Below, piece by piece: positions 11,795-33,400 of a stretch of DNA of 64,000 nt; the stretch's first letter is position 1; every line of letters starts with the position of its first letter. This DNA is from Methanoculleus caldifontis (GTDB taxonomy: Archaea; Halobacteriota; Methanomicrobia; Methanomicrobiales; Methanoculleaceae): assembly GCF_032842345.1 (NCBI RefSeq), contig NZ_WBKO01000001.1:992001-1056000 (forward strand). Direction: 5' to 3'. Position numbers and translations under genes: made by a program. A model generated the notes under the pieces. It worked only from the letters and a program-made list of their open reading frames with translations. It did not search any database and had not been told where the DNA came from.

Positions 11795-11866
11795 GCCGCT
11801 GTGGCTTAGCGGTATAGCGGCTGATTCGTAATCAGCAGGTCGGGGGTTCAAGTCCCCCCAGCGGCT
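11795..11866 (+). tRNA. tRNA-Thr (anticodon CGT)
   Basis: Acceptor arms GCCGCTG and CAGCGGC pair fully, and the T loop is GGTTCAAGTCC. The anticodon stem GCTGA/TCAGC closes the loop TTCGTAA, giving CGT, which reads ACG. CCA is not encoded. The gene marks the left edge of an AT-rich island, and tRNA 3' ends are common integration sites; I could not find a second copy of its 3' end by eye. Confidence 0.95.
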
Positions 11867-12018
11867 TTCCTTTTGTTGAGAGTTCAAGTTCCTTGAGCAA
11901 CGCTTGTATTCCCATTCTGTGATCCCCCATCGTGGGACAATTAGCGAGCCTGCCCTGCCAGGCGTGATTTCATTAGTCAAAACTGCTTGTGCAGATCGCT
12001 TGATTGAGAAAAAAGACC

Positions 12019-12732
12019 TCAAGAAAAAACGAGAGGTAATATTAGCACCAGTGTGAATATTACTATCCAAAAAGTTTCAATTATCTCAATTATTAACTCT
12101 CGGTACTTCCCCTCACGCTTTAATTCAGAGTAGTGAGCCATTAGAATGGCCCCTTTTGATGGGTGTTGAACCATCTCAATCTTCTGGATATCACTTCTTC
12201 TGAAGGCTTTCCAATATTGATTGGACTTCTCGTCCTCAACATAGATGAAGTAATCATCTTCAGTTATTATCCGAGGAAAAACCCCTGCTTGGTCGTCCTT
12301 AAAATATATTTTCACCCAAGTGGCATTGAGGCAGCAGCTAATCAGACCTAGATTAGAAATGATTACATAGGCGCCGAGATAGAAGAACGAAGGAAAAAAT
12401 GCCAATGCTAAAAAGTTAATAATACTATTAAGTGTCCCTTGTGGGATATTTTTGTTATTTTCGTAACTCTGAACTAACTCTAACAGAGAGTTGACAAACC
12501 GGGTAATAAAATTCTCCTGGTTTGGTGCTGCCGCAATCATTACGAAAAATACAATGAACAAACAAAGAACAAAGGTTGCTACCGAAGTAAAATGAAAGAC
12601 TGCCTGAATATTACCTCTATACACGTTAGGTGGTTTAATCATTCTTCCCCAGTAAAAGGCATCTTTTACTAGAAAACCAAACAGTGCGAGGGAAATAAAA
12701 ATAATACTCGCATCAGTGAGGAAGTCGAACAA
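12019..12732 (-). CDS. hypothetical membrane protein in AT-rich island
   Basis: A 237-residue protein I do not recognise. It has four hydrophobic segments, at about residues 8-28, 45-68, 105-132 and 214-236, so both ends are membrane-embedded. A soluble stretch at about 140-210 is charged, with acidic (EDDYFIYVEDE) and basic patches. Codon use is rich in A/T-ending codons, unlike the GC-rich core genes, which points to transfer. A TATA-like TTATATAC on the minus strand lies about 30 to 40 bases upstream, so it probably has its own promoter. It may belong with the nuclease module 380 bases upstream, but nothing shows co-transcription. Confidence 0.7.
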   Translation of the reverse strand: MFDFLTDASIIFISLALFGFLVKDAFYWGRMIKPPNVYRGNIQAVFHFTSVATFVLCLFIVFFVMIAAAPNQENFITRFVNSLLELVQSYENNKNIPQGTLNSIINFLALAFFPSFFYLGAYVIISNLGLISCCLNATWVKIYFKDDQAGVFPRIITEDDYFIYVEDEKSNQYWKAFRRSDIQKIEMVQHPSKGAILMAHYSELKREGKYRELIIEIIETFWIVIFTLVLILPLVFS

Positions 12733-13113
12733 TCGGATTCACCAAATGCCTATATGAACAAATAGGTATATAAGTCGATCTAATTCAGAAAGGGTTTAAT
12801 GAGCCCCATTTCCCTTCCTAAAGATCAGTCCTGGCCCCGTACCCGCACCTGACCGCACGTTCTTTTTTTATCTTTCTGAGAATTTGACAATCTTTTGATA
12901 ACGCTCCCTAGACCTTTCTTGTATCCGATTGTCTCAAGGGGTTCATTGCACACTCTATGTGCATGCTGCCTCAACCAACAACAACTCACCATGATCGAGG
13001 ACTGTATCTGGTCCGCGCAAGAGTTGTGGCTTCTATTCTATCCTAGTGTCTTACCCTCATTCTGGTAAAAAATTGGGAGGAAGGTAACGCGTTATTACTT
13101 CAATCAGACACTG
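12733..13113. other. intergenic stretch inside the AT-rich island
   Basis: No gene is supported here. The left end holds the promoter of the membrane protein gene. A T-run (TTTTTTT, about 12863-12870) could end plus-strand transcripts, but there is no plus-strand gene to end. The rest has no repeat or structured RNA that I can see. Confidence 0.4.
12763..12772 (-). promoter_or_regulatory. TATA-like box for the island membrane protein
   Basis: On the minus strand this reads TTATATAC with flanking purine-rich bases, about 30 to 40 bases before the start at 12732. The surrounding DNA is AT-rich, so chance matches are easier here. Confidence 0.35.
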
Positions 13114-13893
13114 TTATCTCAATTCAACACACGCAAGTGGTAATTCTTTGAAATACTGGTAAAATTTCCTTGCTACATTTTTTGATGTGGCTATTGGATC
13201 CCAATACTGGGTAGCCATTAGTTCAAGTTCTCCAAAAAGTAATGAGTATGTTTCTGCTCCCTCAGTTCTCTCTCTCAATCCCTTGAGCGTCCTATCTAAC
13301 TGTACCCTTCTTTCTGTCCATGCTCTCTGAAATTCTTCGGACATATCTTGGTAATGCAAGATGGGATTGGGAGTATATTCTTCTTCTAATGGTGATAATA
13401 GGTCGAATTCAAGATTTTTAGCAAACTCCTCTAGCGCGATTTCGGCAGCAGGCTTACTTCCTAAAAAAAATTCATTATATTCGAAGGGGGATTCGAAAAA
13501 CACTGGAATAAAAATAGTATCCGAATCAGCGCTTTCTAAGAATTGATTGGCGTATTTTATTTGGTTTGGGATAATCCTTAATCTCTCATCAAAGTGTTTC
13601 ATGGCCTCAATTTCTGATAAATCGGCCCTCTCAAAATCACTATCGACAAACTCAAACAATAAGCCGTTAACATGTGACAAACATAGGCGGAATATACCGT
13701 ATGTCGAATATGAACCTATCCTTACTCCTAGCTCATCTTCAGAAGAATTATCTTCAGAGGATGTCCATTCTGTGGCATTAAGTGGACGCCCAATATGTTC
13801 CTCTAATTCCTTTAAGAATTGTTTCTTGTTTCGCCACCCAATACTAAGATTTATCCAATCGAACCAGTTTGTTCTGCCCAGATCCAGCCCCAC
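13114..13893 (-). CDS. hypothetical acidic protein, partner of the nuclease-like gene
   Basis: A 259-residue soluble protein that I cannot place. It is acidic, with a run EWTSSEDNSSEDE near residue 45 and many Glu/Asp later; no signal peptide, membrane segment or known catalytic motif is visible. It starts with GTG at 13893, directly after the TAA of the upstream nuclease-like gene, with GGAGGAG five bases before the start and inside the end of that gene. This spacing means tight translational coupling, so the two proteins very likely work together. AT-rich codon use marks it as acquired. Possible roles are target recognition, regulation or neutralisation of the nuclease; none is shown. Confidence 0.7.
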   Translation of the reverse strand: MGLDLGRTNWFDWINLSIGWRNKKQFLKELEEHIGRPLNATEWTSSEDNSSEDELGVRIGSYSTYGIFRLCLSHVNGLLFEFVDSDFERADLSEIEAMKHFDERLRIIPNQIKYANQFLESADSDTIFIPVFFESPFEYNEFFLGSKPAAEIALEEFAKNLEFDLLSPLEEEYTPNPILHYQDMSEEFQRAWTERRVQLDRTLKGLRERTEGAETYSLLFGELELMATQYWDPIATSKNVARKFYQYFKELPLACVELR

Positions 13894-14397
13894 TTAGACT
13901 CCTCCTAATATTCGTTCGCTCAAAACGAGAATGTGTATCCGTTCACATATCTTATCTGGCAGTAGGGAGGTCTTTTTCATAAATCTTTTTTGTAAGGTGT
14001 TAGTGCAATATGCGTTTCGATCTTGCAAGAATTTTCTCCAATCCCCTGGTGGTACGGTGCAAATGAAGCAAAACTCGGCTCTCGCAGCTTGATCTGTATC
14101 TGCCTGCGTGAGCGCACGAAACACTTTCTCAACGAATTCACGGAATTCGGAATTTGTGTCTCCAGTTCTCTCATTTCGATATTTACATTCGATATACAAA
14201 ATTTGTTTAGCACTATTGCCTTGATTAAGAGCGAGAGACAGATCGAAGTAGGTCTCCCCTATGCATGTAGCAGTTCCCGTTGCGTCATATGTATCTCCGA
14301 ACGGTTTTACTTTAAGTCCTAAAAACGTTCTTGATACAAGCCATCTCTTCACGGAGCTTTGGTACAGTTCTCCCTTCTTATGAAGCGTCTCTCGCAT
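13894..14397 (-). CDS. predicted PD-(D/E)XK (restriction-like fold) nuclease
   Basis: A 167-residue protein with the layout of a small restriction-like or Holliday-junction-resolvase-like nuclease. An N-terminal helix carries E10 (KKGELYQSSVKRWLVS), a strand carries D52 (ETYFDLSLALN), and the next strand has E70-x-K72 (ILYIECKYRNE). This E...D...E-x-K order is the PD-(D/E)XK catalytic pattern; family assignment beyond that is not possible by eye. It is the first gene of a two-gene unit with the acidic protein that follows without a gap. A TATA-like TTAAATAA is at 14428-14435. The AT-rich codon use and location by tRNA-Thr suggest horizontal transfer, and a defence or DNA-processing role is a reasonable guess. 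Confidence 0.72.
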   Translation of the reverse strand: MRETLHKKGELYQSSVKRWLVSRTFLGLKVKPFGDTYDATGTATCIGETYFDLSLALNQGNSAKQILYIECKYRNERTGDTNSEFREFVEKVFRALTQADTDQAARAEFCFICTVPPGDWRKFLQDRNAYCTNTLQKRFMKKTSLLPDKICERIHILVLSERILGGV

Positions 14398-14719
14398 TGG
14401 CCTTGGCTGAATGATTTTTGATTAAAGTTATTTAACTACATACGATTTAGTTATCTATTGCCTATTTGCACAAACCTGGTTTCAGCAACACTATCCGGGA
14501 TACCCAGTCTTCCCGTCTTCCAAGCCGCTTGGATCAGCATTACCTTGGCCCCGTTGGCCTGTCCACAGGCAATGACGCTGGCCTCATGAGAGTCAGTGCT
14601 CCCTCTGTATTCCCAAGGGCCCTTATATTTGATGATATTTGCATAATCTCACATCTTGACTTTTGAATAGCCACGTTTCTTAACTGAACTCGGTTTTTAG
14701 AACCTATGTTAACCTCAGC
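14398..14719. other. right end of the AT-rich island, with a possible gene remnant
   Basis: The left part holds the promoter of the nuclease module. A minus-strand frame is open from 14648 to a TAA at 14451 and reads like a 65-residue protein tail (SHEASVIACGQANGAKV, then QAAWKTGRLGIPDSV), but it has no start codon. It is higher in GC than the island. I do not recognise it. It could be the end of a gene truncated when the island arrived, or chance; the plus strand is also open over part of it. Confidence 0.3.
14428..14435 (-). promoter_or_regulatory. TATA-like box for the nuclease module
   Basis: TTAAATAA on the minus strand lies 31 to 38 bases before the start codon at 14397, which would give a leader of only a few bases. 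The DNA is AT-rich, so the call is tentative. Confidence 0.35.
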
Positions 14720-14962
14720 GTGAGCCAGAAGACGGATAACCCATCCTCACCCACCCCTGATCCGATATCCATGCCAACCGACACCGGCACCCCGGCAATC
14801 ACCCTCTCCCTCCTCGGCATCGCGTTCGTGCTGCACTTCTCGGCCGCACCCTACTACTTCATCGGCTCCCCTCCGACGGGGTTCAGCACCGGCACCCTCG
14901 GCCTGGTCATCTGCGTCGCCGGGGTGCTTCTCGCCGGCGTTGCCGCCGCAAGGAAGGAGTGA
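14720..14962 (+). CDS. small hypothetical membrane protein
   Basis: An 80-residue protein with a GTG start at 14720, a polar N-terminus rich in Pro, Ser and Thr, and two hydrophobic segments at about residues 25-48 and 58-76. It ends in AARKE, a typical cytosolic basic tail. There is no recognised domain. An alternative start is the ATG at 14771. GC-rich codon use shows it belongs to the core genome and marks the right edge of the island. Confidence 0.5.
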   Translation: MSQKTDNPSSPTPDPISMPTDTGTPAITLSLLGIAFVLHFSAAPYYFIGSPPTGFSTGTLGLVICVAGVLLAGVAAARKE

Positions 14963-32326: not shown

Positions 32327-33400
32327 ATGAATAAATCAGCCGGTGTAAGGTTTTTTAAGAACCACATCTCGAATCGTGTGTTTGACTCTGTCAAACGCCC
32401 AACATATGCGTATATTACCATTACGTCTGTGTGCAATTCCCGATGCAAGTATTGTGATATGTGGAAAAATAAAGGAGGGGACGAGACGAATGCAGACGAA
32501 TGGAAAAAAATTATCGATGAATTAGCAAATCTCGGTGTTGTGACATTAACTTTTAGTGGTGGAGAGCCTTTTATTCGCGAAGATCTGTTCGAACTCGCGT
32601 CGTATGCAAGATCTCAGGGATTAATCACGATGGTTGTTACAAACTTGAGTTTATTTAAAGAATGGCATATAGAAAAGATAGCGGAGAGTTTCGATTTTTT
32701 CGGAATTTCGATAGATAGTACACGGTCAGAGATATATAAAGAAGTCAGGGGCGTGGATTGGTTAGAACGAATTAAAGAAAATGTTCGCAAACTCATGGCC
32801 GGTCTGACTGAGTTGAAGGCCGACGTGTACGTTTGTGGAATGGTTACCATCAGTAACAGAAATGCATATGAATTGCACGACGTAATTCACATGATCTTCG
32901 ATGATCTCGGAATGGATACAATATCTTTTAATTTATTAGACCCGGGTGGAGCTGCAACCGCTAAAGAATTTTTACCGACTCATGAGCAGATCAATTATGT
33001 TAAAAAGGTCCTTTTTGATCATAAATCATTGTATCCAATCAGTAATTCAACACGATTCCTCAATCAACTAGGAGATTTTGATTACCGGTGTAATCCCTGG
33101 AAAAGTGTACAGATCAATGAAAAAGGTTTTTTGCAATCACCCTGCCTTTTCGTTTCAGCCCAACCTGACATTTTCCCGGGTGGAAGAGAGATAGACCTGT
33201 GTAAAAATAAATTGTCGGATGTCTGGAGAGAAGAACAAAGAACCTATTCCAAATATGCCGATTGTAAATTGTGTAACCTTGGTTGCGTTGCAGAATCCGC
33301 ATGGTCGACGTACGATTTGAAATTTATACTGAATGATAGTTTTTTTGGCATGATCTTACCCACAATGAAAAGAATAAGAGAACGAAATAATAGAGGATAG
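32327..33400 (+). CDS. AT-rich radical SAM/SPASM-like protein
   Basis: A 357-residue radical SAM enzyme. The cluster motif is CNSRCKYCDMW at residues 37-47, followed by the SAM-binding LTFSGGEPFIREDL. The C-terminal part has SPASM-like cysteines: RCNPWKSVQ, SPCLFV and a final CKLCNLGCVAESAW, for extra Fe-S clusters. Such proteins modify peptides, sugars or cofactors; no substrate peptide or partner gene is adjacent. Codons are AT-rich, unlike neighbours, and the gene is followed by a transposase remnant, so it was probably acquired. Translation starts shortly after a GTGAT sequence with weak Shine-Dalgarno character. Confidence 0.85.
   Translation: MNKSAGVRFFKNHISNRVFDSVKRPTYAYITITSVCNSRCKYCDMWKNKGGDETNADEWKKIIDELANLGVVTLTFSGGEPFIREDLFELASYARSQGLITMVVTNLSLFKEWHIEKIAESFDFFGISIDSTRSEIYKEVRGVDWLERIKENVRKLMAGLTELKADVYVCGMVTISNRNAYELHDVIHMIFDDLGMDTISFNLLDPGGAATAKEFLPTHEQINYVKKVLFDHKSLYPISNSTRFLNQLGDFDYRCNPWKSVQINEKGFLQSPCLFVSAQPDIFPGGREIDLCKNKLSDVWREEQRTYSKYADCKLCNLGCVAESAWSTYDLKFILNDSFFGMILPTMKRIRERNNRG

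Follow-up and report, generated by a model that had tools for sequence, protein, structure and literature searches.

Beside a tRNA-Thr gene in the 2.6 Mb genome of Methanoculleus caldifontis, an AT-rich insert carries two adjoining genes, one for a small basic protein that is likely a PD-(D/E)XK nuclease, the other for a larger, strongly acidic partner; the two occur side by side again in a second family of the order. The pair looks like a small, rare and undescribed nuclease module, with defence perhaps as its role. We tentatively favor the reading that it is a laterally acquired two-gene module in which the acidic protein would restrain the nuclease, in the service of defence or as a toxin-antitoxin system.

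Gene arrangement at the tRNA-Thr locus

Along the window (the whole stretch of 64,000 nucleotides that was analyzed), GC content falls from ~0.65 to 0.35-0.48 over 11900-14700 and recovers to 0.62 past 14700; the three genes of the island have a third-position GC of 0.35-0.39, compared with 0.86 and 0.93 for flanking genes. An earlier reading of the sequence alone had placed an AT-rich block right after tRNA-Thr, and the GC profile and the ARAGORN call of the tRNA gene (in which CCA is not encoded) agree with it, as does the ORF list, with proteins of 167, 259 and 237 residues at the places that it had given (Table 1). All three ORFs lie on the minus strand, so that the gene for the predicted membrane protein is nearest to tRNA-Thr and the nuclease gene farthest from it. 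The junction between nuclease and partner is gapless, as had been noted: the TAA stop is followed immediately by GTG, with GGAGGAG a few bases upstream.

Table 1. Features of the tRNA-Thr locus, in window coordinates.
Feature	Position	Strand	Basis and remarks
tRNA-Thr (CGT)	11795..11866	+	ARAGORN; left edge of variable site
AT-rich insert, ~2.8 kb	11868..14655		absent from G007, nearly absent from G006
237-aa protein, four hydrophobic segments	12019..12732	-	island cargo, outside module
259-aa acidic partner	13114..13893	-	ORF; pI 4.6; GTG start directly after nuclease stop
167-aa basic protein, probable PD-(D/E)XK nuclease	13894..14397	-	ORF; pI 9.0

The predicted membrane protein, encoded 381 bases past the partner gene, matches Ion_trans at E 9e-4, below the cut-off. 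The sequence-only reading had grouped it with the pair; its four hydrophobic segments and its strand are as described, but the grouping does not hold in relatives. Homologs with 28-29% identity are found in two genomes, both without the pair (G134 and G108; one lies near a tRNA-Thr gene, the other near an ORF that by eye reads like a PIN-domain protein), and no such gene accompanies the pair in its second host. It was thus rejected as a third component and is, judged by these relatives, separate cargo of the island.

Conservation of the pair

Searches of 150 relatives, and then of 232 genomes of the order (E<=0.001), find either protein in the window's genome and in one other, G045, which belongs to another family of the order. 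Neither gene occurs alone in any of the 232; the two are always paired. In G045 they are adjacent and overlap by one base (TAATG), with 43% identity to the window copy for the nuclease and 40% for the partner, which is shorter there (193 aa), mainly through lack of the stretch around window residues 169-231. The two proteins carry opposite charges in both copies, with isoelectric points for nuclease and partner of 9.0 and 4.6 in the window, in line with the acidity that had been read from the sequence, and of 8.6 and 4.5 in G045. That they are neighbors in a second family of the order is more than chance would give, and their conservation as a pair argues, with the caution due to two copies, that both are true coding genes which stay together. 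Linkage in other genomes had been proposed as a check on the pairing, and in the single relative found the pair is indeed kept together.

Sampling 393 genomes across the phylum brought no further copy of the nuclease, and no relative of it came from the genome contigs (searched with short peptide patterns), viral contigs, phages or plasmids; for the partner, viral contigs and plasmids gave none. Titles and abstracts of the literature yielded nothing on this pair.

About 1.2 kb from the pair in G045 lies a gene for a 249-aa protein (L009:9274-10023, minus strand), which has a weak likeness to HepT RNase toxins (E 0.007, below the cut-off) and contains an R-x4-H motif (RNKFVH).

The two proteins of the pair

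For the first protein, assignment to the PD-(D/E)XK nucleases is likely, as its motif and predicted secondary structure suggest. D52 and E70-x-K72 are invariant across the window and G045 copies, and no other D-x(9-29)-[DE]-x-K pattern behind a hydrophobic stretch is conserved; such a pattern is reached in 162 of 20,000 column shuffles, in a test devised after the motif had been seen. The motif proposed from the sequence thus stands in these residues but not in E10, which is a lysine in G045 and hence not conserved. Q13, within G-x-x-Y-Q, is invariant in both copies and stands where many superfamily members have an acidic helix-A residue; Gln at this usual place is a difference from the superfamily. 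A likeness lies in the structure model, which is of low confidence (pLDDT 46, from a two-sequence alignment): helix 2-21, strands 31-33, 44-52 and 65-72, helix 85-98 and strand 108-113 follow one another in the canonical helix-strand-strand-strand-helix-strand order, and D52 closes strand 44-52 as E70/K72 close the next one, 65-72. Searches with this same model in Foldseek and VIA return unrelated folds, with no nuclease among them and Z at most 4.6, and at such model confidence they carry no information. The low confidence follows from alignments of two sequences only, and at this level structure prediction neither proves nor refutes a nuclease fold.

The nearest Pfam families are PDDEXK_11 (PF20472; E 0.09, spanning residues 7-97) and PDDEXK_13 (PF20796; E 0.085), both reached by the G045 copy far below the curated cut-off. 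The window copy is matched by neither, and in a whole-genome search of both pair-bearing genomes PDDEXK_11 does not reach the G045 copy. Pfam and NCBIfam hold no match to the nuclease above the cut-off, and a PDB sequence search gives none.

Pfam, NCBIfam, PADLOC and PHROGs yield nothing significant for the partner, bearing out the earlier judgment that it could not be placed; the PDB sequence search returns chance-level matches, neither this nor the family libraries reveal a recognizable DNA-binding domain, and its structure model has a pLDDT of 37, too low for use. Its start (MGLD..., SYxxxxxFR, DSD) presumably resembles that of bacterial proteins beginning with MGLD or MGID, which we take as a lead only.

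Variability of the tRNA-Thr site

Sequence comparison across the genus shows a variable hotspot at tRNA-Thr, with many inserts of differing content. Most congeners cease to resemble the window within ~10 bases of the 3' end of tRNA-Thr, and many resemble it again from around window 14650-14730. In G007 only a few bases separate the tRNA from sequence that matches the window from 14655 on, and in G006 the site is almost empty; it follows that the window holds an insert, of the size given in Table 1. G015, which is closest to the window here (96% identity at the site), carries different cargo, which fits lateral gain. A copy of the tRNA 3' end, such as an attachment repeat would leave, was sought at the far edge of the insert, but none reaches 10 bases, and no integrase, recombinase or replication gene is seen in the ORF list of the insert.

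The cargo of congeners at this site includes a SIR2 protein matching PDC-S65 (E 4e-58), a PDC-M11A protein (E 5e-153), a type II methyltransferase-like gene, 2TM effector-like proteins at six loci (by PADLOC models) and a gene matching Cas12f models, which is probably a transposon TnpB. The impression is of a site enriched in defence genes. Defence in methanogenic archaea is to our knowledge little explored, and the site offers a place to seek more such genes in archaea.

A protein of 202-209 aa recurs at the tRNA-Thr sites of congeners, downstream of the tRNA gene (loci L043, L049, L051, L053, L055 and L060). Just right of the insert, an ORF on the plus strand (14720-14962) encodes an 80-aa predicted membrane protein; most congeners carry the DNA of this ORF near the site as well, some of them twice.

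Possible function of the pair

A basic nuclease coupled to a strongly acidic partner is best explained as a restrained nuclease. In such a module the two proteins would be translated together; the partner would bind and restrain the nuclease, as an antitoxin or an immunity-like inhibitor, and invading DNA or infection might then free the nuclease to cut DNA. In its favor are the pairing in both genomes and the coupled junctions, the nuclease motif and the order of elements in the model, the weak PDDEXK matches in G045, the opposite charges, the defence-model cargo of the hotspot in sister genomes and the HepT-like neighbor in G045. Counting against it are the low pLDDT of the nuclease model, the nuclease-free fold matches, the failure of PDDEXK_11 to reach the protein in the whole-genome search, the size and second place of the partner, and the small number of copies. 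We give the proposal as a tentative one, the best of those considered.

Known systems resemble the pair in part. Like type II toxin-antitoxin systems, it consists of two small coupled genes conserved as a pair in variable locations, with a basic probable nuclease and an acidic partner; it differs in that the toxin-like gene comes first and that the partner, unlike most antitoxins, is second and larger than the nuclease; the partner has no recognized DNA-binding domain, and neither protein has a Pfam or NCBIfam match at the cut-offs. With small nuclease-based anti-phage systems of hotspots it has its site in common, as sister genomes carry SIR2 and 2TM genes there along with others that PADLOC models hit, but neither protein of the pair matches any PADLOC model itself, and all three island proteins are unmatched by PADLOC-DB 2.0.0 up to E 1. 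Of the sequence-only proposal of a nuclease-partner unit that might act in defence, the unit, conserved and in a tRNA-flanking island, is supported; the defence role is plausible only by location, through the defence-model cargo of sister genomes. That the pair is an undescribed archaeal defence system, with a new PD-(D/E)XK family controlled by a partner of new fold, seems to us rather doubtful.

The partner could also be a recognition or sensor subunit that steers the nuclease to DNA that is foreign or modified, the two proteins forming a restriction-like system of two subunits that has no methylase. The coupling of the genes in both copies speaks for this, no methyltransferase is present in the island, and the size of the partner leaves room for a recognition domain; however, a strongly acidic protein would be an unusual DNA-binding subunit, and a DNA-binding domain is not recognizable in it, which leaves such a role unlikely. 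The variable location, the rarity of the pair and the many differing inserts at the site would suit a small mobile element whose maintenance or DNA processing, rather than defence, the pair serves (as a resolvase or repair-like nuclease with a helper). Against this, no integrase, recombinase or replication gene is seen in the insert, and the mobile collections returned no relatives (phage, plasmid and viral for the nuclease; viral contigs and plasmids for the partner); this origin is less likely still.

Lowest in our estimate stands the case that the first protein is no nuclease, the motif being coincidental and the pair having some other role. Lack of family matches above the cut-off and of fold matches, together with the variable residue 10, would fit it, but the invariant D and E-x-K come in the right order, each closing one of two predicted strands in succession, and we consider it improbable. 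The restrained-nuclease module remains our preferred, if tentative, reading; unmatched in the family libraries searched and kept together across two families of the order, the pair is a tractable candidate.

A second AT-rich patch lies elsewhere in the window (32327-33400, plus strand; GC ~0.46, GC3 0.38) and encodes a 357-aa radical SAM protein, whose best NCBIfam match, the PTO1314 family, falls below the cut-off, as does prokaryotic viperin; this patch was probably acquired.
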